Origin: Cellulomonas sp. JZ18
GTDB taxonomy: Bacteria > Actinomycetota > Actinomycetes > Actinomycetales > Cellulomonadaceae
NCBI RefSeq assembly: GCF_009720485.1
Contig: NZ_CP045245.1
Location: forward strand, 248,001-312,000
Length of the DNA: 64,000 nt
Reading direction: 5' to 3'
This document shows, piece after piece, positions 44,618 to 64,000 of the stretch. Within the stretch, counting starts at the first letter, position 1. Each line of letters opens with the position of its first letter. The notes beneath the pieces were generated by a model. That model was not told the DNA's origin. It ran no database searches and was given only the letters and a program-made list of their open reading frames with translations. The translations under genes were made by a program, and so were the position numbers.

Positions 44618-46168
<1,551 letters not shown>

Positions 46169-51834: not shown

Positions 51835-52125
51835 ATGAGCGACGTCGTGGTGAGCGAGGTGCCGGACGAGCGGCGCTTCGAGGCGCGCACGCCGGAGGGC
51901 GAGCTGCTGGGGTTCGCGGCGTACCACGTCGAGGGGGACGACGTCGTCCTCACGCACACCGAGGTGGACCCGCGCGCGGAGGGGCACGGCATCGGCTCCT
52001 CGCTCGTGCGGCAGACGCTCGACCAGCTCTCGGCGTCGGGGCGCGGCGTGGTCGCCGTCTGCCCCTTCGTCCGCTCGTGGGTGGACGCCCACCCCGACTA
52101 CGCCGGGGTGCTGAAGAGGCGCTGA
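51835..52125 (+). CDS. small GNAT-like N-acetyltransferase (YjdJ type)
   Basis: Protein of 96 residues of the GCN5-like fold found as single small domains. The acetyl-CoA loop is EGHGIGSSLVRQTLDQL (about residues 49-65), and the end VAVCPFVRSWVDAHPDYAGVL is diagnostic of the YjdJ/YidJ group. Start ATG 51835 has CAGGAT exactly six bases upstream. Confidence 0.9.
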   Translation: MSDVVVSEVPDERRFEARTPEGELLGFAAYHVEGDDVVLTHTEVDPRAEGHGIGSSLVRQTLDQLSASGRGVVAVCPFVRSWVDAHPDYAGVLKRR

Positions 52126-52572
52126 TCACATCGGGACCGCCCACCAGGCGCGGGCAGGCTCACCCGTTCGTGAGACCTCTGTCACGTCGGACTTGACCCG
52201 CGTGACCACATGGACGACCGACCTACAGGTCCTCTGACCTGCGATGTGACCCGGTTTGCCCCAGGGCGTCGTGGACGTATGTCCGATTGAACCGTTTACC
52301 GGCAATTTACTGATACGTATTTGCCTTCACCCTTTGGGGCGGTGCATCCTCGAATCACCGACGCGGCGTGCGCACCCAGCGGCGCCCGGGTACGGCGGTG
52401 CGAGAGGACCCGGTCGACGACCGGGACCGACGGCCCGCCCCTCGGTCACAGCGGCCCAGCCGCACCCCGCCCAGACGTACGTCCTCCTCCACGGGGGGTC
52501 GTGCGTGTCCGGCTGCGCCGACGACGCCGATAGCCGATCAAGCCGATCCCTCCGGTTCTCCAGGAGATCCAC
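52126..52572 (+). promoter_or_regulatory. 447-base leader/promoter region of exopolysaccharide cassette 1
   Basis: No gene is seen. The stretch contains overlapping inverted repeats (GACCTACAGGTC at 52220-52231 and AGGTCCTCTGACCT at 52227-52240), an arm pair GTCACG/CGTGAC at 52181/52201, and AT-richer sequence at 52280-52325, unusual here. The element at 52245-52313 is conserved before cassette 2 and includes the pair GGAC-N4-GTCC (52273-52284). TTGAAC at 52287 may be a -35. The remaining about 250 bases form a long untranslated leader. Confidence 0.6.
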
Positions 52573-54078
52573 TTGTTCATCTTCATCCTGCAGATGCGGC
52601 ACATGATCGAGGCGCACAACGAGGTCTACCTCTTCGCTGTGTTCTCCGCTCTCGTGTGGGCGCTCTGGATCCTCAAGGTGGTGCTGTCGCGGCGCTACCG
52701 CCCCGTGACCGCGCCGTACCAGGTCAGCACCTCCGTGGTGATCCCGGTCGTCGACGAGCCGCTGGACCTGTTCCGCGACGTCCTGCGCCGCATCGTCGAC
52801 CAGGAGCCGGACGAGATCATCGTCGTCATCAACGGCGCGCCGAACCCCGGCCTCGAGTCGGTCTGCGACGAGTTCGGCCCGGTCGTCCAGCACGTCCACA
52901 CGCCGATCCCCGGCAAGCGCAACGCCGTCAAGATCGGCACCGAGATGTCGCGCGGCGAGATCACGGTCCTCGTCGACTCCGACACCGTGTGGACCGACGG
53001 CACCCTCCCCGAGCTGGTCAAGCCGTTCGCCGACCCGTCGGTCGGTGGCGTCACCACCCGGCAGCGCATCCTCGAGCCCGAGCGCTCCTGGATCACGCGC
53101 TGGGCCGACTGGCTCGAGAACACCCGCGCCCTCTACTCCATGCCCGCGCAGTCGGTGCTCGGCCAGATCGGCTGCCTGCCCGGCCGGACCATCGCGTTCC
53201 GCCGGCACATCCTCATGCAGGTCATGGACAAGTTCATGCACGAGAAGTTCCTCGGCGTCTTCCTCGAGGTCTCCGACGACCGCACGCTGACGAACCTCAC
53301 GCTGAAGGCCGGCTACCGCACCGTCTACCAGTACACGAGCCTCGTCTACACCGACGCCCCGCTGCAGGTGAAGAAGCTCTTCAAGCAGCAGCTGCGCTGG
53401 TCGCGCGGCTCGCAGTACAACACCCTGCGCATGCTGCCGTGGATGCTCGGGCACGCCCCGGTGCTCGCGATCTTCTTCCTGACGGACATCATCCTGCCGT
53501 TCCTGCTCTTCGGGACGGTGGCCGGCTGGGTCTACCGCGCCGTGTCCGGCACGGGCGTGAACCTCTACCAGGCGATCCTGCAGAGCAGCGGCGTCAACGG
53601 CTGGGTCTGGGTCATCGGCCTGATGGTCGTCTCGTCCGTGCTGTCGATGGCGATCCGCCAGATCCGGCACCTGCAGGAGAAGCCCTCGGACTTCTTCCGC
53701 CTCCCCGTCTTCATCATCGTCTCGACGATGTTCCTCATGCCGATCCGGCTCATCGGCTTCTTCCGCATGGCCCACGTGGCCGGCTGGGGCACCCGCGCCG
53801 GCGCGTACACCGCGGGGCAGGAGGACGCCGTGGCCGACGACGTCATGGCGCAGCTCGAGCGGGAGAGCACGTCCGTGGACGCTCCGGTCGACCTGGTCGA
53901 CCGCACCGCGTCCGGCGGGACCGCCGTGGCCGGTGACGGCAGCGTCGCGGTGCAGGCCCCGGCCCGCGCCCGCACCCGCACCGTGGCCCCGGCCCGCCGG
54001 CGCCACAACCCCCTCGCCCTCGTCCCCTACGCGATCGGGATCGTGATGTTCGCCCTCATGGCGGTGTTCTATGTCTGA
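52573..54078 (+). CDS. processive family-2 glycosyltransferase, hyaluronan/cellulose synthase-like, copy 1
   Basis: Membrane polysaccharide synthase of 501 residues. One N-terminal helix (about 17-38) precedes the GT2 domain with VVIPVVDEP, DSD (Asp135, Asp137), VSDDRTLTN (Asp235-Asp236) and QQLRW (about 272-276), the D,D,D,QxxRW set of processive synthases; SDDRTLTN resembles hyaluronan synthases. Four helices follow, then a variable linker and a last helix NPLALVPYAIG. It would polymerise a UDP-sugar and export the chain. TTG 52573 is the start: AGGAGA is upstream and copy 2 has ATG at the same place. Stop overlaps the next ATG by eight bases. Confidence 0.9.
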   Translation: MFIFILQMRHMIEAHNEVYLFAVFSALVWALWILKVVLSRRYRPVTAPYQVSTSVVIPVVDEPLDLFRDVLRRIVDQEPDEIIVVINGAPNPGLESVCDEFGPVVQHVHTPIPGKRNAVKIGTEMSRGEITVLVDSDTVWTDGTLPELVKPFADPSVGGVTTRQRILEPERSWITRWADWLENTRALYSMPAQSVLGQIGCLPGRTIAFRRHILMQVMDKFMHEKFLGVFLEVSDDRTLTNLTLKAGYRTVYQYTSLVYTDAPLQVKKLFKQQLRWSRGSQYNTLRMLPWMLGHAPVLAIFFLTDIILPFLLFGTVAGWVYRAVSGTGVNLYQAILQSSGVNGWVWVIGLMVVSSVLSMAIRQIRHLQEKPSDFFRLPVFIIVSTMFLMPIRLIGFFRMAHVAGWGTRAGAYTAGQEDAVADDVMAQLERESTSVDAPVDLVDRTASGGTAVAGDGSVAVQAPARARTRTVAPARRRHNPLALVPYAIGIVMFALMAVFYV

Positions 54079-55908
54079 GCGCAGCACGAACAAGCACTGG
54101 TGGAGCCTCAACGGCCGCCTCGGGTTCGCCGCCCGGCTCGGCGCCCTGGTGACCGCCCTCGCCCTCGGCGCCGTGACCGGCATCGTGTGGCTGTCCCCGT
54201 CCGGCGCGTCCGCCGGCACCCCGAAGACCGAGGCCGAGCTGGAGCTCGAGCGCGAGGTCGCGGACCTGCGCGCGATCCTCGCGGACCGCGACGACCAGCT
54301 CTCGGACGTCGAGCGCTGGCAGGCCAAGGCCAAGTCGGAGCGCGCCGCCGCGGCGGAGCGCGGCAAGGCCAAGGCCGAGGCCGAGAAGGCCGCAGCCGCG
54401 GCCGCCGGCCAGGACAAGGCGGCCGCCGCGCGTGCGGCCGCTGCCGACAAGGCGGCCGCCGAGCGTGCCGCCGCGGCCGAGAAGGGCCGCAAGAAGGCGG
54501 CGGCCGAGCGTGCCGCCGCGGCCCAGCGCGGCAAGGAGAAGGCGGCGCTCGAGCGGCAGCTGGCCGACGCGCGTGGCGACGCCGAGGGTGCGGCCATCCG
54601 CGCCGCGGTCGCGCAGAAGCAGGTCGAGGCGGCTCGTGCCGCCGCGGCCGCCCGTGCCGAGGCGGCGAAGCCGGTCAAGCCGACGGCTCCCGCGCTGGCC
54701 AGCCTCCTGGTGCCGGACCACCGCTACTTCGGCCTCTACACGGCCCAGTCGCCGTTCAACTGGGCCGAGTCGGACGACGTGGCGCGGCAGGTCGGCCTCG
54801 AGCCGAACATGGCCGGCTACTTCCAGGGCTGGGACTCGCCGTTCCGTGCCGACGCGGTCAACCGCGCGTGGGAGAAGGGCGAGCTGCCGTTCCTCACGTG
54901 GGAGTCGCGTCCCATGCTGGCCGACAACAACCAGGTCGAGGACCCGGCGTACTCGCTGCCCCGGATCATCGACGGCGCCTTCGACGACTACCTGCGCGAG
55001 TACGCCCGGGGCGTCGCCGCGAACGGTCTGCCGATGGCCATCCGTCTCAACCACGAGATGAACGGCAACTGGTACCCGTGGGCGGAGCAGGGCAGCAACG
55101 CCAAGCCCGTCAACGGCAACCGGCCCGGCGACTTCGTGAAGATGTGGCGGCACGTCCACGACATCTTCGAGGCCGAGGGCGCGAACGCGTTCGTCATCTG
55201 GGTCTGGTCGCCGAACATCGTCAACAACCTGCCCGCGACGAACAAGTCGCTCGCGTACACGCGCAGCCTGTACCCGGGTGACGAGTACGTGGACTGGGTC
55301 GGCATGTCGGGCTACTACCGCCCGCCGTACGCCGAGGGCCAGACGCCGACGTTCGACTACACGTTCGGCCGCACGCTCGACCAGCTCCGCGCCATCACGG
55401 GCAAGCCGATCGTCCTGTCCGAGATCGGTGCGTCCGAGTACGGCGGCGACAAGCCGGCGTGGATCACCGACCTGTTCGACGCCCTCGCCCGGCCCGAGAA
55501 CGGGGACATCATCGGCATGGCGTGGTTCCACCACGCGGTGACGACGGTCTCCGGCGGCCAGCTGGTGACGAACGACTGGCGCATCACCTCGCGGTCGAGC
55601 TCCCTCGCGGCGTTCGTCGAGGGGATCCACGACCCGTCGGCCGGCTTCCTCCCGGGGGCCACCCCGGTGGCCGCCGCCCTGGCGGCCCTCGACGCGGCTC
55701 TCGCCGCACCGACCGACGCACCGGCCGACGCACCGGCCGCCCCCGAGGCGCCGGCCGCCCCGAGGCGGTCGTCCCGGAGCCCGTCCCGGCACCCGCCGAG
55801 CCGGCCCCGACGCCGGAGCCCGCCACCACGCCGGCCCCGACCCCCACGCCCACCTCGACGACGCCGGCCCGCCCGCAGGCCACCCCGTCGCCGACCGCCA
55901 CCCGTTGA
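54071..55908 (+). CDS. membrane-anchored coiled-coil GH26 glycosidase, copy 1 (tail frameshifted)
   Basis: Type II membrane protein: cytoplasmic start, one helix (about residues 18-40), an Ala/Lys/Glu/Arg coiled-coil stalk (about 55-205), a GH26 domain (about 215-520) and a Pro/Ala/Thr tail. Acid/base Glu329 is in LNHEMNGNW and the nucleophile Glu451 in LSEIGASEYG. GH26 enzymes cut beta-mannan or related beta-glycans; here trimming or release of the polymer made by the synthase is inferred. At 55758-55761 a CCCC run must gain one C to continue as PEAVVPEPVPAPAEP to the stop at 55908. As sequenced, the frame runs on into the next gene. Confidence 0.85.
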
Positions 55909-55960
55909 TCCCGGGCGGGGCCTGCACGGCACGCCCCGCCCCACCTCTCAGGAGCACGTG

Positions 55961-57361
55961 ATGAAGTCCCAGCGCAGCACCCGGCCCGAGACCGCCCCCG
56001 TCGCGGCCGAGGCCACCGCGTCCGCCCCGCAGGTGGACGCCCCCCGTATCACCGTTCTCGGTACCGGTTACCTCGGTGCGACGCATGCGGTCGCGATGGC
56101 CGAGCTCGGTTTCGACGTGGTCGGTGTGGACACCGACCAGGGCAAGGTCGACGCTCTGCAGGCGGGCAAGGTCCCGTTCTTCGAGCCCGGGCTGCCCGAG
56201 CTGCTGGAGAAGAACCTGGCCACGGGTCGGCTGCGGTTCACCACGGACGTGGCGTCCGCGGTGGCGCAGGGTGATGTGCACTTCGTGTGCGTGGGCACCC
56301 CGCAGCAGCGCACGTCGCACGCGGCGGACCTGCGGTTCGTCGAGGCCGCGACGACGGCGATCGCCCGTCACCTGACGAAGGACGCGGTCATCGTGGGCAA
56401 GTCGACGGTGCCGGTCGGCACCGCGGCGCGTCTGCGTGGGCTGGTCGCGGCCGAGGCCCCGGCGGGCCTGGACGTCGAGCTCGTGTGGAACCCGGAGTTC
56501 CTGCGTGAGGGCAAGGCCGTGCAGGACACGCTGCACCCGGACCGCATCGTGCTCGGCGGGGTGTCCGCCAAGGCCGAGGCGGTCCTGCGTCGGGTCTACG
56601 CGACGCCGATCGCCGAGGGTGCGCCGGTCGTGGTGACCGACCTGCCGACGGCGGAGCTGGTCAAGGTCAGCGCGAACGCGTTCCTGGCGACGAAGATCTC
56701 GTTCATCAACGCGATCGCGGGTGTGTGCGAGGCCGCGGGTGCGGACGTGACGGTCCTGGCCGACGCGCTGGGTCACGACGTGCGCATCGGGCGGCAGTTC
56801 CTCGATGCCGGTCTCGGCTTCGGTGGGGGCTGCCTGCCCAAGGACATCCGGGCGCTGATGCACCGGGCGAACGAGCTGGGTGCCTACCGGGCGACGGCGC
56901 TGCTGCAGCAGGTCGACGAGATCAACATGGGTCAGCGTGAGCGGGTCATCGACCTGGCGCTGGAGGCCTGCGACGGGTCGGTCCTGAACAAGCGGATCGG
57001 TGTGCTCGGTGCGGCGTTCAAGCCGCTGACCGACGACGTGCGTGACAGCCCGGCGCTGAACGTGGCCGCGGCGCTGCACCTGCGTGGTGCGCAGGTCACG
57101 GTCTACGACCCCGAGGCCGGTGACACCGCCCGTCGCCTGTTCCCGACGCTGTCCTACGCGACCGGTGTCGAGGAGGCCGTCGAGGGCGCCGACGTCGTCC
57201 TCGTCCTGACCGAGTGGGACGAGTTCCTGCAGGCGGACGCGGCGCGGCTCGCGCCGATCGCGAACCACGCGAAGATCATCGACGCCCGCGGCAAGCTCTC
57301 CGCGGACGCCTGGCGCGCCGCCGGGTGGCAGTTCACGGGTCTGGGCCGCACGGCCGCCTGA
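55961..57361 (+). CDS. UDP-glucose 6-dehydrogenase, copy 1
   Basis: Enzyme of 466 residues that oxidises UDP-glucose to UDP-glucuronate with NAD. Rossmann motif GTGYLGATHA follows a unique N-terminal tail of about 27 residues. STVPVGTA, WNPEFLREG, the central-domain Lys region and the catalytic Cys291 in FGGGCLPKD are all present, as is the C-terminal AFKPLTDDVRDSP. Start ATG 55961 has CAGGAG upstream. Bases 56041-57233 are nearly identical to copy 2 and use more GGT/CGT codons than neighbours. Confidence 0.95.
   Translation: MKSQRSTRPETAPVAAEATASAPQVDAPRITVLGTGYLGATHAVAMAELGFDVVGVDTDQGKVDALQAGKVPFFEPGLPELLEKNLATGRLRFTTDVASAVAQGDVHFVCVGTPQQRTSHAADLRFVEAATTAIARHLTKDAVIVGKSTVPVGTAARLRGLVAAEAPAGLDVELVWNPEFLREGKAVQDTLHPDRIVLGGVSAKAEAVLRRVYATPIAEGAPVVVTDLPTAELVKVSANAFLATKISFINAIAGVCEAAGADVTVLADALGHDVRIGRQFLDAGLGFGGGCLPKDIRALMHRANELGAYRATALLQQVDEINMGQRERVIDLALEACDGSVLNKRIGVLGAAFKPLTDDVRDSPALNVAAALHLRGAQVTVYDPEAGDTARRLFPTLSYATGVEEAVEGADVVLVLTEWDEFLQADAARLAPIANHAKIIDARGKLSADAWRAAGWQFTGLGRTAA
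56041..57233 (+). repeat. near-identical dehydrogenase segment, copy 1 of 2
   Basis: 1193 bases repeated at 61681-62873 in direct orientation, exactly 5640 bases away. I count three differences (56416, 56613, 56734). Both edges are abrupt: bases 56040 and 57234 onward do not match. Consistent with recent gene conversion. Confidence 0.95.
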
Positions 57362-57378
57362 CCCGTCGCACGACCGCG

Positions 57379-57426
57379 AACGCGCGGTCCGGCTCCTCAC
57401 GTCTCCGAGGGGCCGGGCCGCGCGTT
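57379..57426 (+). terminator. hairpin after dehydrogenase copy 1
   Basis: Arms AACGCGCGGTCCGGC and GCCGGGCCGCGCGTT pair over 15 bases with one mismatch and an 18-base loop, followed by TTCG. It starts 18 bases after the stop and closes cassette 1. Confidence 0.6.
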
Positions 57427-57872
57427 TCGTGTTTCCCGGGATGCCGGTCGCGGGTGAGCGGGTCTCCCGGGGCGACCGACTGGTGAGACGGGTGCGCTCC
57501 CACGCCGGTGCAGAACGGTCGAACTGGACATTCGTCACGAAGTGGCGCTGACCAGCGCGTTGACCCGATTTGTCCTGTCTGCCCAGGACAAATGTCCAGA
57601 ATGACCGTTCACAGGAAGTTTGCCGGAATGGCTTTCGCGGCGTGCTGCAGCGCGGGCATGGTGGCACCACCCCCGACCGGCAGCGCCGCATCCAGCGGCG
57701 CGGCGGCAACGCACGGTGCACGGACACCCGGAGAGCTCCCGGGTGCCGCCGTGGTCCCGGTCGATCCGGCCTCGAGGCCCGACCGCAGGACTGGGTCGGG
57801 CCTCCGGCCCCTGCTCCTGCTGTGCGCCGATGACGCCGTCCAGCTCATCCGTACCGGCCCGCCAGGAGACTC
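57427..57872 (+). promoter_or_regulatory. leader/promoter region of exopolysaccharide cassette 2
   Basis: No gene is seen in this gap. A 10-base inverted repeat ATTTGTCCTG/CAGGACAAAT (57568-57577, 57584-57593) overlaps the pair GGAC-N4-GTCC (57586-57597), which also occurs before cassette 1. TTGACC at 57560 could be a -35. The block 57559-57626 aligns with 52245-52313, including CCGTT-AC-GG-A-TTT. About 275 bases of leader follow before the ATG. A small ATG frame from 57601 has no support. Confidence 0.6.
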
Positions 57873-59438
57873 ATGTTCATCTTCATCCTCCAGCTTCGGC
57901 ACATGCTCGAGGGTCAGAACGAGATCTACCTCTTCGCCGTCTTCTCCACCCTCGTCTGGGCGCTGTGGGTCCTCAAGGTCGTGCTGTCGCGGCGGTACCG
58001 CCCCGCGACGGCCCCCTACGAGGTCAGCACGTCCGTCGTCGTCCCCGTCGTGGACGAGCCCCTCGACCTCTTCCGCGACGTGCTGCGCCGCATCGTCGAC
58101 CAGCGCCCGGACGAGGTGATCGTCGTCATCAACGGCGCCGCCAACCCCGGCCTCGAGGCGGTCTGCGACGAGTTCGCGCCCCTCGTGCGGCGCACGCACA
58201 CCCCGGTCCCGGGCAAGCGCAACGCGGTGCGCATCGGGACGCAGATGTCGCGGGGCGAGATCACCGTCCTCGTCGACTCCGACACGGTCTGGACGGACCG
58301 CACGCTCGCCGAGCTGGTCAAGCCGTTCGCCGACCCGTCGGTCGGCGGCGTCACGACCCGCCAGCGCATCCTCGAGCCGACGCGCTCGTGGATCACGCGC
58401 TGGGCCGACTGGCTCGAGAACACGCGCGCCCTCTACTCGATGCCGGCGCAGTCCGTCCTGGGGCAGGTCGGCTGCCTGCCGGGCCGCACCATCGCGTTCC
58501 GCCGGCGGATCCTCATGCAGGTCATGGACGCCTTCATGACGGAGAAGTTCCTCGGGGTGTTCCTCGAGGTCTCCGACGACCGGACGCTGACGAACCTCAC
58601 GCTGAAGGCCGGCTACCGGACGGTGTACCAGTACACGAGCCTGGTCTACACCGACGCCCCGCTGAAGATCCGCAAGCTCGCGAAGCAGCAGCTGCGCTGG
58701 GCGCGCGGGTCGCAGTACAACACCCTGCGGATGCTGCCCTGGATGGTCGGGCACGCGCCGGTCCTGGCGATCTTCTTCATCACCGACATCCTGCTGCCGT
58801 TCCTGCTGTTCGGGACGATCGCGGGCTGGGTGTACCGCGCGGTCTCCGGCACGGGCGTGAACCTCTACGAGGCGATCCTCGAGAGCACGACGCGGCTCGA
58901 GGGCTGGGCCTGGGTGGTCGGTCTCATGATCGTCTCGTCGGTGCTCTCCATGGCGATCCGGCAGATCCGGCACCTGCAGGAGAAGCCCTCGGACTTCTTC
59001 CGCCTGCCGCTGTTCATCATCGTCTCGACGCTCTTCCTGATGCCGATCCGGCTCGTCGGGTTCTTCCGCATGGCCCACGCCGCCGGCTGGGGCACCCGCG
59101 CCGGGGCGTACTCGGGAGGTGCCGAGCACGCCGTGCCGGACGCCGACCTCATGGCCGAGCTGGAGCGCGTGGACGACGCCGACGCACCCGTCGACCTCGT
59201 CGACCGCACACCTCCCGGCGGCACGCCCGTGGTCGCAGGCGCCGTCACGACCCCGGCGGGCACGGCCCCGGCCGGCACGTCCACGGCCGCCGCGCGCCTC
59301 GCGCTGCGCAGCCGCGCGCGCCAGCGCGCCCAGGTGGCCGGTGCGCTCCCCGCGCGCCGGCGGCCGAACCCCCTGGCTCTCGTCCCCTACGCGATCGGAC
59401 TGGTGATGTTCTCGGTGATGGCGGTGTTCTATGTCTGA
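57873..59438 (+). CDS. processive family-2 glycosyltransferase, hyaluronan/cellulose synthase-like, copy 2
   Basis: Paralogue of the synthase at 52573, 521 residues with the same helix plan and motifs (DSDTVW, VSDDRTLTN, QQLRWARGS). In the first 60 residues I count ten substitutions relative to copy 1; the linker before the last helix is longer and unrelated (TPPGGTPVVAGAV region). ATG 57873 follows AGGAGA. The last codons overlap the next ATG exactly as in cassette 1 (ATGTCTGA). Confidence 0.9.
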   Translation: MFIFILQLRHMLEGQNEIYLFAVFSTLVWALWVLKVVLSRRYRPATAPYEVSTSVVVPVVDEPLDLFRDVLRRIVDQRPDEVIVVINGAANPGLEAVCDEFAPLVRRTHTPVPGKRNAVRIGTQMSRGEITVLVDSDTVWTDRTLAELVKPFADPSVGGVTTRQRILEPTRSWITRWADWLENTRALYSMPAQSVLGQVGCLPGRTIAFRRRILMQVMDAFMTEKFLGVFLEVSDDRTLTNLTLKAGYRTVYQYTSLVYTDAPLKIRKLAKQQLRWARGSQYNTLRMLPWMVGHAPVLAIFFITDILLPFLLFGTIAGWVYRAVSGTGVNLYEAILESTTRLEGWAWVVGLMIVSSVLSMAIRQIRHLQEKPSDFFRLPLFIIVSTLFLMPIRLVGFFRMAHAAGWGTRAGAYSGGAEHAVPDADLMAELERVDDADAPVDLVDRTPPGGTPVVAGAVTTPAGTAPAGTSTAAARLALRSRARQRAQVAGALPARRRPNPLALVPYAIGLVMFSVMAVFYV

Positions 59439-61392
59439 GCGCACGAGCAGGCACTGGTGGACGCTGACGGGCCGGCTCGGTCTCGTCGCGCGGACCGCGG
59501 CGCTCGTCGTCGCGCTCGCGCTGGGCGTCGTCACGGGGATCGTGTGGCTCTCGCCGTCCGAGGCCACGCCGACCGCCAAGAGCGAGCTGGAGAAGCAGCT
59601 CGAGCAGGAGAACGCGGACCTGCGCGCGATCCTCGCGGACCGGGAGGACGAGCTCGCCGCCCTGGAGCGCTCGCAGGGCAAGGCCAAGGCGGAGCGCGCC
59701 GCGGCCGCCGAGCGGGGACGTGAGAAGGGGGCCGCCGAGAAGGCCGCCGCGAAGGCCGCCGAGGAGCGCGGCAGGCAGAAGGCCGCCGCCGAGAAGGCCG
59801 CGGCGGCCGAGCGCGGCAAGCAGAAGGCCGCCGCCGAGAAGGCGGCCGCCGCGGCCCGGGGCCGCGACAAGGCGGCCGCGGACCGTGCCGCCGCCGCCCG
59901 GCGCGCGGCGCAGAAGGCCTCGCTGGAGAAGCAGCACGCCGCCGCCGTCGGCGCGCTCGAGGCGGCCCGGCGGGCGGCGGAGCAGGCGGCGCGCGAGCGC
60001 GACGCCCAGAAGGCGCGTGGCGACGACCTGAGCAACCAGGTCAACAACCCCGCGCCCCGGCCGCCGGCGCCGCCGAAGCCCCGCCCGGTCACGCCGACGC
60101 TCGACGAGCTGCGCACGCCGCAGGACCGCTACTTCGGGCTGTACACGACCCAGTCGCCGTTCAACTGGGCGGAGTTCGACGACATCACGCGCAAGGTGCA
60201 GGCCGTCCCGGACATGTCCGGGTACTTCCAGGGCTGGGACGGCGACTTCCGCCCCGACGCCGTCACGCGCTCGTGGGAGAAGGGGATGCTCCCGCTGCTC
60301 ACGTGGGAGTCGCGCCCGATGCTCGCGGCGAACGACCAGGCGGTGGACCCGGACTACTCGCTGCCCGTGATCCTCGGCGGCAGGTACGACGAGTACCTGC
60401 GCAAGTACGCCCGGGACGTCGCCGCCCACGGCATGCCGCTCGCGATCCGCCTCAACCACGAGATGAACGGGTCCTGGTACCCGTGGGGCGAGCGCGAGTG
60501 GGGCGGCGGGCCGCTCAACGGCAACCGCAAGGGCGACTTCGTGAAGGTGTGGCGCCACGTGCACGACATCTTCGAGGAGGAGGGCGCCAACGAGTACGTC
60601 CTGTGGGTCTGGGCGCCGAACATCGTCAACGCGCTGCCCGACTACGCCAAGTACTCGTCGTGGTACATGAAGTCGCTGTACCCGGGCGACGAGTACGTCG
60701 ACTGGGTGGGCCTGTCCGGCTACTTCCGCCCGCCGTACCGCGCGGACCAGACGCCGACCTTCTCCTACACCTACGACCGGTCGCTCAAGCAGCTGCGGGA
60801 GATCGCGCCGTCCAAGCCGATCCTGCTCGCGGAGATCGGCGCCTCGGAGATCGGCAACCAGAAGCCGCAGTGGGTCACGGACCTGTTCGACGCACTGGCC
60901 AGGCCCGAGAACCAGGACATCATCGGCATCGCGTGGTTCCACCACACGGTGACGACGATCAGCCAGGGCCAGCGGGTGACGAACGACTGGCGCATCAACT
61001 CCCGCGCCGACTCGCTCCGCGCGTTCGTCGAGGGGATCCACGACCCCGCTGCCGGGTTCGGGTACGCACCGCTCCCGGCACCGGCGGCCGCGGCCGCCGG
61101 ACCTGCGGACGCCGCACCTGCCGCCGACGCCGCACCCGCGGCTCCCGAGGCGGCACCGGCGCCCGTGTTCGGTCCGCCGACCCCGACGCCCACCGGGACG
61201 CCCACCGGGACACCCCCCGCGACACCGTCCCCGCCCGCCGCGACGCCCCCGGTGCCCGCACCGGCCGTCACGCCGGACCCGGAGCCGGCCCCGGCGCCCG
61301 CGCCGGCGCCGACGGAGACCGTCGCGGTCCTCCGGGCGACGGACGAGCAGTCGCTCGCTCCCGCCGGCGCCACGCCCGCACCCACGCCCTGA
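59431..61392 (+). CDS. membrane-anchored coiled-coil GH26 glycosidase, copy 2
   Basis: Intact type II membrane protein of 653 residues: helix (about 18-38), coiled-coil stalk with repeated RGRxKAAAEKAAA units (about 50-190), GH26 domain and a Pro/Ala/Thr tail of about 110 residues. Acid/base Glu344 is in LNHEMNGSW; nucleophile Glu468 is in LAEIGASEIG. The stalk is about 15 residues longer than in copy 1 and differs in sequence. It shows how copy 1 should end: its stop is well before the dehydrogenase start. Confidence 0.92.
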   Translation: MSERTSRHWWTLTGRLGLVARTAALVVALALGVVTGIVWLSPSEATPTAKSELEKQLEQENADLRAILADREDELAALERSQGKAKAERAAAAERGREKGAAEKAAAKAAEERGRQKAAAEKAAAAERGKQKAAAEKAAAAARGRDKAAADRAAAARRAAQKASLEKQHAAAVGALEAARRAAEQAARERDAQKARGDDLSNQVNNPAPRPPAPPKPRPVTPTLDELRTPQDRYFGLYTTQSPFNWAEFDDITRKVQAVPDMSGYFQGWDGDFRPDAVTRSWEKGMLPLLTWESRPMLAANDQAVDPDYSLPVILGGRYDEYLRKYARDVAAHGMPLAIRLNHEMNGSWYPWGEREWGGGPLNGNRKGDFVKVWRHVHDIFEEEGANEYVLWVWAPNIVNALPDYAKYSSWYMKSLYPGDEYVDWVGLSGYFRPPYRADQTPTFSYTYDRSLKQLREIAPSKPILLAEIGASEIGNQKPQWVTDLFDALARPENQDIIGIAWFHHTVTTISQGQRVTNDWRINSRADSLRAFVEGIHDPAAGFGYAPLPAPAAAAAGPADAAPAADAAPAAPEAAPAPVFGPPTPTPTGTPTGTPPATPSPPAATPPVPAPAVTPDPEPAPAPAPAPTETVAVLRATDEQSLAPAGATPAPTP

Positions 61393-61579
61393 CGGCGACC
61401 AGGGTCTGACGGCGACCCGCCCGGTCGGCCGCGCCGTGCGCGCGGCCGGCCGGGGCGGTCCGGGTGCCCGCACCCCCTCGGGGTGCGCGTACCCCACCGG
61501 ACGCCCGGCGCGTCCCCCCTCGCACCGACGCGGGGCGTCCTCGCGCGCCCCGCGCCCCACCCGTACCCGGAGGCATGCC

Positions 61580-63001
61580 ATGACGACCTCACGCCCCGCC
61601 GCCCGCCTGACGACCGCCCGTCCCGTCGACGCACCCGTCGACGCTCCCGTCGCCGACGCGCCCGCCGCGTCGCCCGACGGCCCCCGTATCACCGTTCTCG
61701 GTACCGGTTACCTCGGTGCGACGCATGCGGTCGCGATGGCCGAGCTCGGTTTCGACGTGGTCGGTGTGGACACCGACCAGGGCAAGGTCGACGCTCTGCA
61801 GGCGGGCAAGGTCCCGTTCTTCGAGCCCGGGCTGCCCGAGCTGCTGGAGAAGAACCTGGCCACGGGTCGGCTGCGGTTCACCACGGACGTGGCGTCCGCG
61901 GTGGCGCAGGGTGATGTGCACTTCGTGTGCGTGGGCACCCCGCAGCAGCGCACGTCGCACGCGGCGGACCTGCGGTTCGTCGAGGCCGCGACGACGGCGA
62001 TCGCCCGTCACCTGACGAAGGACGCGGTCATCGTGGGCAAGTCGACGGTGCCGGTGGGCACCGCGGCGCGTCTGCGTGGGCTGGTCGCGGCCGAGGCCCC
62101 GGCGGGCCTGGACGTCGAGCTCGTGTGGAACCCGGAGTTCCTGCGTGAGGGCAAGGCCGTGCAGGACACGCTGCACCCGGACCGCATCGTGCTCGGCGGG
62201 GTGTCCGCCAAGGCCGAGGCGGTCCTGCGTCGGGTCTACGCGACGCCGATCGGCGAGGGTGCGCCGGTCGTGGTGACCGACCTGCCGACGGCGGAGCTGG
62301 TCAAGGTCAGCGCGAACGCGTTCCTGGCGACGAAGATCTCGTTCATCAACGCGATCGCGGGTGTGTGCGAGGCGGCGGGTGCGGACGTGACGGTCCTGGC
62401 CGACGCGCTGGGTCACGACGTGCGCATCGGGCGGCAGTTCCTCGATGCCGGTCTCGGCTTCGGTGGGGGCTGCCTGCCCAAGGACATCCGGGCGCTGATG
62501 CACCGGGCGAACGAGCTGGGTGCCTACCGGGCGACGGCGCTGCTGCAGCAGGTCGACGAGATCAACATGGGTCAGCGTGAGCGGGTCATCGACCTGGCGC
62601 TGGAGGCCTGCGACGGGTCGGTCCTGAACAAGCGGATCGGTGTGCTCGGTGCGGCGTTCAAGCCGCTGACCGACGACGTGCGTGACAGCCCGGCGCTGAA
62701 CGTGGCCGCGGCGCTGCACCTGCGTGGTGCGCAGGTCACGGTCTACGACCCCGAGGCCGGTGACACCGCCCGTCGCCTGTTCCCGACGCTGTCCTACGCG
62801 ACCGGTGTCGAGGAGGCCGTCGAGGGCGCCGACGTCGTCCTCGTCCTGACCGAGTGGGACGAGTTCCTGCAGGCCGACCCCGCCGCGCTCGCGCCGCTCA
62901 CCCACACGCCGCGCGTGATCGACGCGCGCGGCAAGCTCTCGGCCGCGCGCTGGCGTGACGCGGGCTGGCGCTTCACGGGTCTGGGGCGCGCCGCCGCCTG
63001 A
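61580..63001 (+). CDS. UDP-glucose 6-dehydrogenase, copy 2
   Basis: Enzyme of 473 residues with catalytic Cys298 in FGGGCLPKD. Between the N-terminal tail (about 34 residues, Ala/Pro/Asp-rich, different from copy 1) and residue about 430 the protein differs from copy 1 by a single residue (ATPIGEGAP against ATPIAEGAP); the last about 40 residues differ more. ATG 61580 is behind GGAGG. It lies 187 bases after the GH26 stop. Confidence 0.95.
   Translation: MTTSRPAARLTTARPVDAPVDAPVADAPAASPDGPRITVLGTGYLGATHAVAMAELGFDVVGVDTDQGKVDALQAGKVPFFEPGLPELLEKNLATGRLRFTTDVASAVAQGDVHFVCVGTPQQRTSHAADLRFVEAATTAIARHLTKDAVIVGKSTVPVGTAARLRGLVAAEAPAGLDVELVWNPEFLREGKAVQDTLHPDRIVLGGVSAKAEAVLRRVYATPIGEGAPVVVTDLPTAELVKVSANAFLATKISFINAIAGVCEAAGADVTVLADALGHDVRIGRQFLDAGLGFGGGCLPKDIRALMHRANELGAYRATALLQQVDEINMGQRERVIDLALEACDGSVLNKRIGVLGAAFKPLTDDVRDSPALNVAAALHLRGAQVTVYDPEAGDTARRLFPTLSYATGVEEAVEGADVVLVLTEWDEFLQADPAALAPLTHTPRVIDARGKLSAARWRDAGWRFTGLGRAAA
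61681..62873 (+). repeat. near-identical dehydrogenase segment, copy 2 of 2
   Basis: Direct repeat of 56041-57233 with three differences. The flanking bases on both sides do not align with copy 1. Confidence 0.95.
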
Positions 63002-63017
63002 CCCCCAGGACGCGGGG

Positions 63018-63055
63018 GTGCGGTCCAGCCCGGTCCCCGCGGGGCTGGACCGCAC
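63018..63055. terminator. hairpin terminator after dehydrogenase copy 2
   Basis: Perfect 14-base stem GTGCGGTCCAGCCC/GGGCTGGACCGCAC with a ten-base loop, 16 bases after the stop. Confidence 0.7.
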
Positions 63056-63094
63056 ACCCGCCACGACGTCCGCGTGCGCGCGCGCGTGACGCAC

Positions 63095-63130
63095 CGAGGG
63101 CCCGATCACGTGCCGGTGGTCGGGCCCTCG
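63095..63130. terminator. hairpin terminator shared with convergent phosphoglucomutase
   Basis: Arms CGAGGGCCCGATCAC and GTGGTCGGGCCCTCG pair over 15 bases with one mismatch and a six-base loop, 36 bases after the phosphoglucomutase stop on the minus strand. Confidence 0.7.
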
Positions 63131-63165
63131 TGTGTGCCCGGGGATCGTTGCCCCGGGCGACGCGG

Positions 63166-64000
63166 TCAGCCGCCCAGCGCGTCCGCCACGACCTGCTTCG
63201 CCTCCTCCTGCACCCGCTGCAGGTGCTCGGGGGAGACGAACGACTCGGCGTAGATCTTGTAGACGTCCTCCGTGCCGGACGGGCGTGCGGCGAACCACGC
63301 GTTCTCGGTCGTCACCTTGAGCCCGCCGATCGCCGCACCGTTGCCCGGCGCGGCCGTCAGCCGGGCGGTGATCGGCTCGCCCGCGAGCTCGGTCGCCGTG
63401 ACCTGCTCGGCCGACAGCGCCGCGAGCGTCGCCTTCTGCTCGCGCGTGGCGGCGGCGTCGACGCGGGCGTAGTACGACTCGCCGAACCGCTCGACGAGCT
63501 CGGCGTGGTGCTGGGACGGGCTGCGCCCGGTCGTCGCGAGGATCTCCGAGGCGAGCAGCGCCGGCAGGATGCCGTCCTTGTCGGTGGTCCACACGGTGCC
63601 GTCCGTGCGCAGGAACGACGCGCCCGCCGACTCCTCGCCGCCGAACCCGACGGAGCCGTCGACGAGCCCCGGCACGAACCACTTGAACCCGACCGGGACC
63701 TCGAGCAGCCGTCGGCCCAGCGCGCCGGCCACGCGGTCGATGAGCGAGGACGAGACGAGCGTCTTGCCGATGGCGGCGCCCTCGGGCCAGCCCGGGCGCG
63801 CACCGCCGTAGAGGTAGGAGATGGCGACGGCGAGGTAGTGGTTCGGGTTCATCAGGCCCGCGTCGGGCGTGACGATGCCGTGGCGGTCCGAGTCGGCGTC
63901 GTTGCCCGTGGCGATGTCGAACGGTGCGCTGCCGCCCGCGCCGGGGCGCATCCGCTCGAGCAGGGAGGCCATCGCGTACGGCGACGAGCAGTCCATGCGG
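63166..64000 (-). CDS. pgm: phosphoglucomutase, C-terminal part (cut by window edge)
   Basis: C-terminal about 278 residues of an alpha-D-phosphohexomutase; the start is beyond the right edge. Visible are the metal loop DADSDRHG, the sugar-binding loop [14 protein letters not shown] and the phosphate-binding loop [17 protein letters not shown], which together identify the glucose-specific phosphoglucomutase group. It converts glucose-6-phosphate to glucose-1-phosphate, the precursor of UDP-glucose, and so could feed the two dehydrogenase/synthase cassettes it faces. Confidence 0.95.

Follow-up and report, generated by a model that had tools for sequence, protein, structure and literature searches.

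Two consecutive three-gene cassettes occupy positions 52573–63001 of the forward strand of the window, the whole 64,000-nucleotide stretch analysed here, which corresponds to positions 248001–312000 of the single-contig 4.04 Mb genome of Cellulomonas sp. JZ18. Cassette 1 (52573–57361) and cassette 2 (57873–63001) encode, in the same order, a family 2 glycosyltransferase (GT2) resembling hyaluronan synthases (HAS), a GH26 glycoside hydrolase with a predicted membrane anchor, and a UDP-glucose dehydrogenase (UGD). In both cassettes the GT2 and GH26 genes meet at ATGTCTGA with an eight-base overlap, confirming the shared order and overlap described in an earlier reading of this DNA (hereafter the original prediction), and of the 72 fetched loci that contain a GT2, 31 also show ATGTCTGA at the end of that gene (32 sites).

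Table 1 Genes and other features of the two cassettes and their surroundings (window coordinates).
Feature	Position	Strand	Remarks
GT2_1, HAS-like processive-type membrane glycosyltransferase	52573..54078	+	TTG start, 501 aa; Pfam, motifs, model, folds
GH26_1, N-terminal membrane helix, coiled-coil-type stretch, lichenase-type GH26 domain, Pro/Thr-rich tail	54071..55908	+	helix and stalk from alignment to GH26_2
UGD_1, UDP-glucose dehydrogenase	55961..57361	+	
GT2_2, HAS-like glycosyltransferase	57873..59438	+	521 aa
GH26_2	59431..61392	+	predicted: membrane helix 18–39, coiled coil 52–201, GH26 domain ~222–545, disordered tail 555–653
UGD_2, UDP-glucose dehydrogenase	61580..63001	+	473 aa
Homogenised tract in UGD_1	56041..57234	+	3 differences in 1,194 bases from UGD_2
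Homogenised tract in UGD_2	61681..62874	+	partner of 56041–57234
Inverted repeat ATTTGTCC...GGACAAAT	57568..57593	.	~280 bases upstream of GT2_2; read from sequence and alignment
Degenerate counterpart of the 57568–57593 repeat	~52252–52283		upstream of GT2_1
Phosphoglucomutase	63166..63999	-	neighbour outside the conserved unit, cut by the window end; profile matches

A search for this gene order across actinobacteria, proposed with the original prediction, identified GT2-GH26-UGD as a conserved three-gene unit. With a 24-row GH26 alignment (A1) we confirmed 167 stretches, and the best of these gave 79 named loci. Of the 79, 61 carry the complete unit in order on one strand and 14 are incomplete only at the end of a record; in L069 a fragment of GH26 lies between the other two genes, and UGD is missing from L012, L038, and L046 despite room for it. 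The titles of the cassette loci span Cellulomonas, Actinotalea, Pseudactinotalea, Leifsonia, Microbacterium, Cryobacterium, Frigoribacterium, and others, including many genera of Microbacteriaceae. Given that choosing loci through GH26 biases this count of completeness, 81 genomes of the Cellulomonas group (the window's genus) were also searched for each gene independently, in a survey that scores the presence of the genes rather than their order. Occurrence was nearly all-or-none, with all three genes in 46 genomes and none in 33, and in both the genome without GT2 (G056) and the one without UGD (G070) a contig end truncates a cassette gene; GH26 is represented in G071 by a short piece, again at the end of a contig. 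In broader samples, with at most three candidates scored per genome and the window's own genome included in every count, GT2 matched at E ≤ 1e-40 in 33 of 396 genomes of the order (12 of these at E ≤ 1e-180) and at E ≤ 1e-100 in 4 of 394 genomes of the class, and GH26 matched at E ≤ 1e-60 in 4 of 396 genomes of the phylum. Among the open reading frames compared across 59 long loci, no further gene was conserved throughout. The cassette is named in no title or abstract opening among the literature matches listed, which is no proof of absence, and our comparisons draw on excerpts of published reports (PMC7786310, PMC10592267, PMC7112168, PMC3544764, PMC10374906, PMC7997180, PMC6556568, PMC13390465, PMC11750622).

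The cassette GT2 is predicted to adopt the GT-A fold and membrane architecture of HAS, and its resemblance to these synthases is well supported by sequence and model. The two window copies match Pfam PF13641 (2e-25 and 1e-24) and both contain QQLRW and WGTR, of which the Q, R, and W of QxxRW and the W, T, and R of WGTR are invariant in 31 of 31 GT2 rows, with WLTR in place of WGTR in the two rows from L123 and L124 (a 33–37% type). Matched by sequence, the cassette GT2 scores 4e-17 against HAS versus 7e-6 against PcManGT. The HAS-like motifs named in the original prediction hold for QxxRW and WGTR, together with the predicted fold and the sequence match, but not for GDDR, which excerpts of the HAS literature call invariant and which reads SDDR at residues 234–237. 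In addition, the residue after WGTR is A rather than G, the gating-loop motif WGTR/KG is also reported in those excerpts for chitin synthases, and the model contains a further C-terminal helix beyond a disordered linker.

The second protein of the two cassettes matches Pfam PF02156 at 53.3 and 52.9 bits (cut-off 20.2), and the HE motif with the catalytic acid/base, described for GH26 in the excerpted literature, is present as H343-E344 in 24 of 24 GH26 rows. The lichenase CtLic26A is the nearest relative by both sequence and fold, with mannanases and xylanases farther away, and placement in the lichenase branch is well supported; a type-B loop signature, found in 3 of 90 rows only, was dropped. 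In GH26_1 the frame slips by one base near 55760, where GC richness shifts from the third codon position to the second and four consecutive C are found against five in a nearby upstream repeat, and the Pro/Thr-rich tail goes on in another frame to the stop at 55908 (stretch 55745–55908). This slip may be a sequencing or assembly error or a real change. The frame left open past it reaches 57361, giving a 1,096-codon GH26-UGD fusion, but two separate proteins are more likely because UGD_1 is provided with an AGGAG ribosome site and an ATG of its own; a single open frame in C. massiliensis (G028, L006) runs across a run of N and lends a real fusion no support. The window's genome has a third GH26 after an L-arabinose isomerase gene (L004), within whose 18 kb no cassette-type GT2 or UGD was found. 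A variant cassette in L087 (11205–15926), L091, and L130 combines a GT2 (61%) with a GH26 (50%), UGD not being found, and is adjoined on the opposite strand by a second, very divergent GH26-like match. A further GT2 (500 aa) lies beside a lichenase-like GH26, on opposite strands, at L124:3659–6353.

The third protein shows the three Pfam UGD domains (best 2e-64) and scores 439 bits against TIGR03026 (cut-off 189.8), consistent with an NDP-sugar dehydrogenase of UGD type; the best equivalog, TuaD, reaches 397 bits, under its cut-off of 700. Judged by identity, the cassette UGD forms a class distinct from the common UGD of the genus: proteins at least 78% identical to UGD_2 occur in 47 of the 81 genomes and a second class, at 56–62%, in 76, with five genomes (G004, G018, G037, G064, and G077) showing the cassette class only.

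Between the two cassettes, identity in protein and DNA is 83.6% and 84.1% for GT2, 65.9% and 74.2% for GH26 (counting GH26_1 only up to the frame slip), and 93.6% and 95.4% for UGD. Just outside the homogenised tract (the first 100 alignment columns and columns 1300–1400), the UGD copies are only about two-thirds alike. Since the UGDs of a second genome with the same tandem pair (G036) are again closer to each other (92% overall) than to those of the window (85–86%), the pattern points to concerted evolution, for which gene conversion would be the simplest route. UGD_1 is nearest to C. telluris in the UGD protein tree (95/92), with UGD_2 next (95/91), because the gene ends differ between the copies.

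The GT2 copies of the window and G036 group with L018 and L007, near relatives carrying a single cassette each, at modest support (0.90, and 86/64, in two trees) within a firm 11-row clade (100/99). GH26_1 of both genomes joins the same two loci (99/99), whereas GH26_2 of both joins the GH26s of other cassettes in an 11-row clade (99/98). Because the GH26 copies split between lineages while the GT2 and UGD copies are kin, cassette 2 is, phylogenetically, a mosaic of a kin synthase and UGD with a GH26 of another lineage. A plain tandem duplicate of cassette 1 whose GH26_2 merely evolved fast would account for the identical order and overlap and for the grouping of the GT2 copies with near-kin single cassettes; as a history it is nevertheless improbable, given that GH26_2 sits on a short branch (0.06) inside its clade and that one clade for both GH26 copies and their kin costs 69 log-likelihood units and is rejected under the model used (approximately unbiased test, p-AU 0.0003), the tested groups having been picked after a first tree had been seen. 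The reverse arrangements, with the second GT2 or UGD placed with the GH26_2 lineage, are likewise rejected (2e-75 and 2e-8). Of the tandem duplication originally predicted, the tandem layout stands, but plain duplication does not. Another adjacent pair lies in G005 (the same record as L062, with identical rows), where UGD was not found after the second GT2-GH26, and assessment of an adjacent pair in G065 is limited by its fragmented assembly. The record of L062 and L086 is titled Cellulosimicrobium cellulans DE0111 and is the same contig as one from G005, counted in the window's genus, making the organism name doubtful.

Approximately 250–300 bases before the GT2 start, GGAC-N4-GTCC is invariant in 10 of 10 aligned regions (the window's two and eight from seven kin loci). 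In several of them, cassette 2 included, it pairs as an inverted repeat with an upstream ATTTGTCC-like half, and elsewhere that half is degenerate; the element is followed by a variable leader and a CAGGAG ribosome site. This inverted-repeat-like element, at about 280–300 bases upstream of the two GT2 genes of the window, could possibly be an operator or the start of a long leader. Of 83 regions upstream of GT2, 3 (L018 and the two in the window) carry a direct-repeat motif, GTTYAC-N5-RTTTRC with a looser form, versus 5 of 2,000 random segments, and the motif would characterise the nearest kin at best. Nine-base words near −300 exceed background, yet are tied to kin groups: ATCCGGACA occurs in 11 of the 83 regions versus 1 of 1,000 random segments, TGTACCCCG in 13 versus 13, and TGACCTGCG in 12 versus 12. 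Rfam (E ≤ 1) gave zero matches to any known riboswitch or other RNA in 52000–64000, and PilZ and GGDEF domains are absent among the Pfam matches of the window, in which no search aimed at a cyclic di-GMP receptor, such as controls the Bcs, Pel, and Bgs synthase systems, was made.

The phosphoglucomutase gene beside cassette 2, credited in the original prediction with supplying glucose-1-phosphate, is only a neighbour; it is present in 8 of the 59 long loci, the window included, which rules it out as a member of the unit. The neighbours of 22 of the 59 loci match those of a Cryobacterium locus (L065), comprising glutamine synthetase, glnE-like, and other genes, and a larger polysaccharide cluster was discarded because these neighbours include no polysaccharide genes by Pfam. 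Elsewhere in the window, 44663–46168 encodes a secreted protein with a Pro-rich linker and a binding module, which from its motif we take to be xylanase-like.

We consider it fairly probable that each cassette is a minimal synthase-dependent locus producing a glucuronate-containing polymer for extracellular cleavage by the stalked GH26. UGD, from its family assignment, would form UDP-glucuronate, which the HAS-like GT2 would polymerise with UDP-glucose, or perhaps UDP-N-acetylglucosamine, as the second substrate while moving the chain through its own membrane channel, as fold and motifs suggest. GH26, predicted to be anchored by one helix and spaced off the membrane by a coiled-coil stalk of ~150 residues, would cleave the emerging chain extracellularly and thereby set its length or release it, and the two GH26 lineages may offer two trimming activities on the same or a similar polymer. 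We infer both the identity of the polymer and the trimming role of GH26. The polymer likely contains uronate and, as a reasoned guess, probably alternates beta-1,3 and beta-1,4 linkages, since the GH26 is lichenase-type and lichenases cleave the beta-1,4 bond adjoining a beta-1,3 bond. Alternating linkages of this kind occur in hyaluronan and in the polymer of type 3 pneumococci. More tentatively, and at somewhat less than even chances, the cassettes may define a distinct actinobacterial synthase-dependent class, in which the HAS-like synthase, its dedicated UGD, and a lichenase-type GH26 on a stalk would make and edit a glucuronate-bearing, glycosaminoglycan-like mixed-linkage glycan. GH26 would then be an exchangeable editing or chain-transferring module, the latter role being possible because the family is retaining, and tandem cassettes would share precursor and backbone, cut in two ways.

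The lichenase type of the cassette GH26 would also fit a neutral glucan, mixed-linkage or curdlan-like, made by the synthase and trimmed by GH26, with UGD serving another pathway and linked by regulation only. The excerpted literature describes a bacterial neutral alternating mixed-linkage glucan, curdlan production by Cellulomonas flavigena, and GT2s of the genus 35–39% identical to curdlan synthase; we regard such a product as unlikely, though worth keeping in mind. Less probable still is that GH26 is the surface enzyme of a plant-glucan degrader that entered the operon by chance and does not act on the cassette product. The presumed xylanase gene in the window, the description of the genus as cellulolytic in those excerpts, and the existence of separate lichenase-like GH26 genes, some in cassette-less genomes (E 1e-41 to 5e-52), point in that direction, but the overlapping start and stop codons, the conserved order, the nearly all-or-none occurrence, the predicted anchor and stalk, and the spread over many Microbacteriaceae genera argue against chance. 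We give similarly little credence to a non-processive GT2 that transfers individual sugar residues onto a lipid or a wall polymer, with GH26 in a remodelling role; such a GT2 is at odds with the QxxRW and WGTR motifs and with the closer match to HAS than to PcManGT.

If the cassettes do make a glucuronate-containing polymer cut by GH26, Cellulomonas, Leifsonia, Microbacterium, and their relatives would possess a self-contained three-gene route to an acidic beta-1,3/beta-1,4 polymer, useful for studies of HAS-type synthases and as a source of glycosaminoglycan-like material, and the window would provide an example of a hydrolase module moving between otherwise homogenised cassettes. A lichenase-type GH26 beside UGD also leads to a specific and testable prediction of how the polymer is linked.

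A locus of related layout is found in the same genome at L123:7405–13669 (G000:C1 ~3283404–3289668), encoding a HAS/NodC-like GT2 (33% identity), right-handed beta-helix proteins, the first clear (68.6 bits, cut-off 25.9) and the second weak (23.4 bits, under the cut-off), and a UGD of the common class. GT2 and UGD are similarly spaced in three other genomes examined (L124, L125, and L131), and the protein before UGD in L124, within the same 19 kb as the GT2 and GH26 on opposite strands noted above, matches the beta-helix family just under the cut-off. That beta-helix proteins occupy the position of GH26 suggests a shared plan of synthase, outside polymer-acting protein, and UGD, in which L123 is possibly an epimerase- or lyase-like counterpart.

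Among known systems, HAS of the chlorella virus/vertebrate type (PDB 7SP6-9, 8SNC/8SNE, and 8SMM/N/P) resemble the cassette GT2 in sequence, predicted fold, QxxRW, and the WGTR gating loop, and has loci likewise pair the synthase with a UGD; the cassette differs by SDDR, the further C-terminal helix, and a constant GH26 partner. The GH26 domain of Clostridium thermocellum endoglucanase H, CtLic26A, is the closest solved relative of the cassette GH26, but is cellulosomal and serves plant-glucan breakdown, whereas the cassette enzyme would be tethered to the membrane through a coiled coil and is encoded next to a synthase. The parallel drawn in the original prediction to the type 3 capsule locus of Streptococcus pneumoniae (cps3D, cps3S) survives, by gene content and order, for one synthase plus a UDP-glucose dehydrogenase (the functional pair of type 3), but not for a linked phosphoglucomutase, and the excerpts name no hydrolase for type 3 where the cassette has a constant GH26. 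Pel and other synthase-dependent operons similarly encode a synthase and an extracellular glycoside hydrolase together or nearby, and deletion of PelAH in B. cereus is reported in the excerpts to raise adherent biomass; the cassette has another hydrolase family, three conserved genes only, and no deacetylase or PelD-like part among its Pfam matches. The BgsBA glucan of Sinorhizobium meliloti shares the proposed backbone type, being alternating beta-1,3/beta-1,4 and cut by lichenase, but is neutral, with BgsA resembling cellulose synthases and neither UGD nor GH26 mentioned in the excerpt. The wps-1 cluster of Actinoplanes missouriensis likewise combines GT2 and GH26 genes in a polysaccharide cluster of an actinobacterium, but is predicted in the excerpted report to be Wzx/Wzy-dependent, unlike the cassette, and its authors state there that they are aware of no characterised Wzx/Wzy cluster with a GH26. 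By analogy, the cassette would work like a type 3 or HAS-style synthase locus with a built-in lichenase-type hydrolase, its relation to either being one of likeness only.
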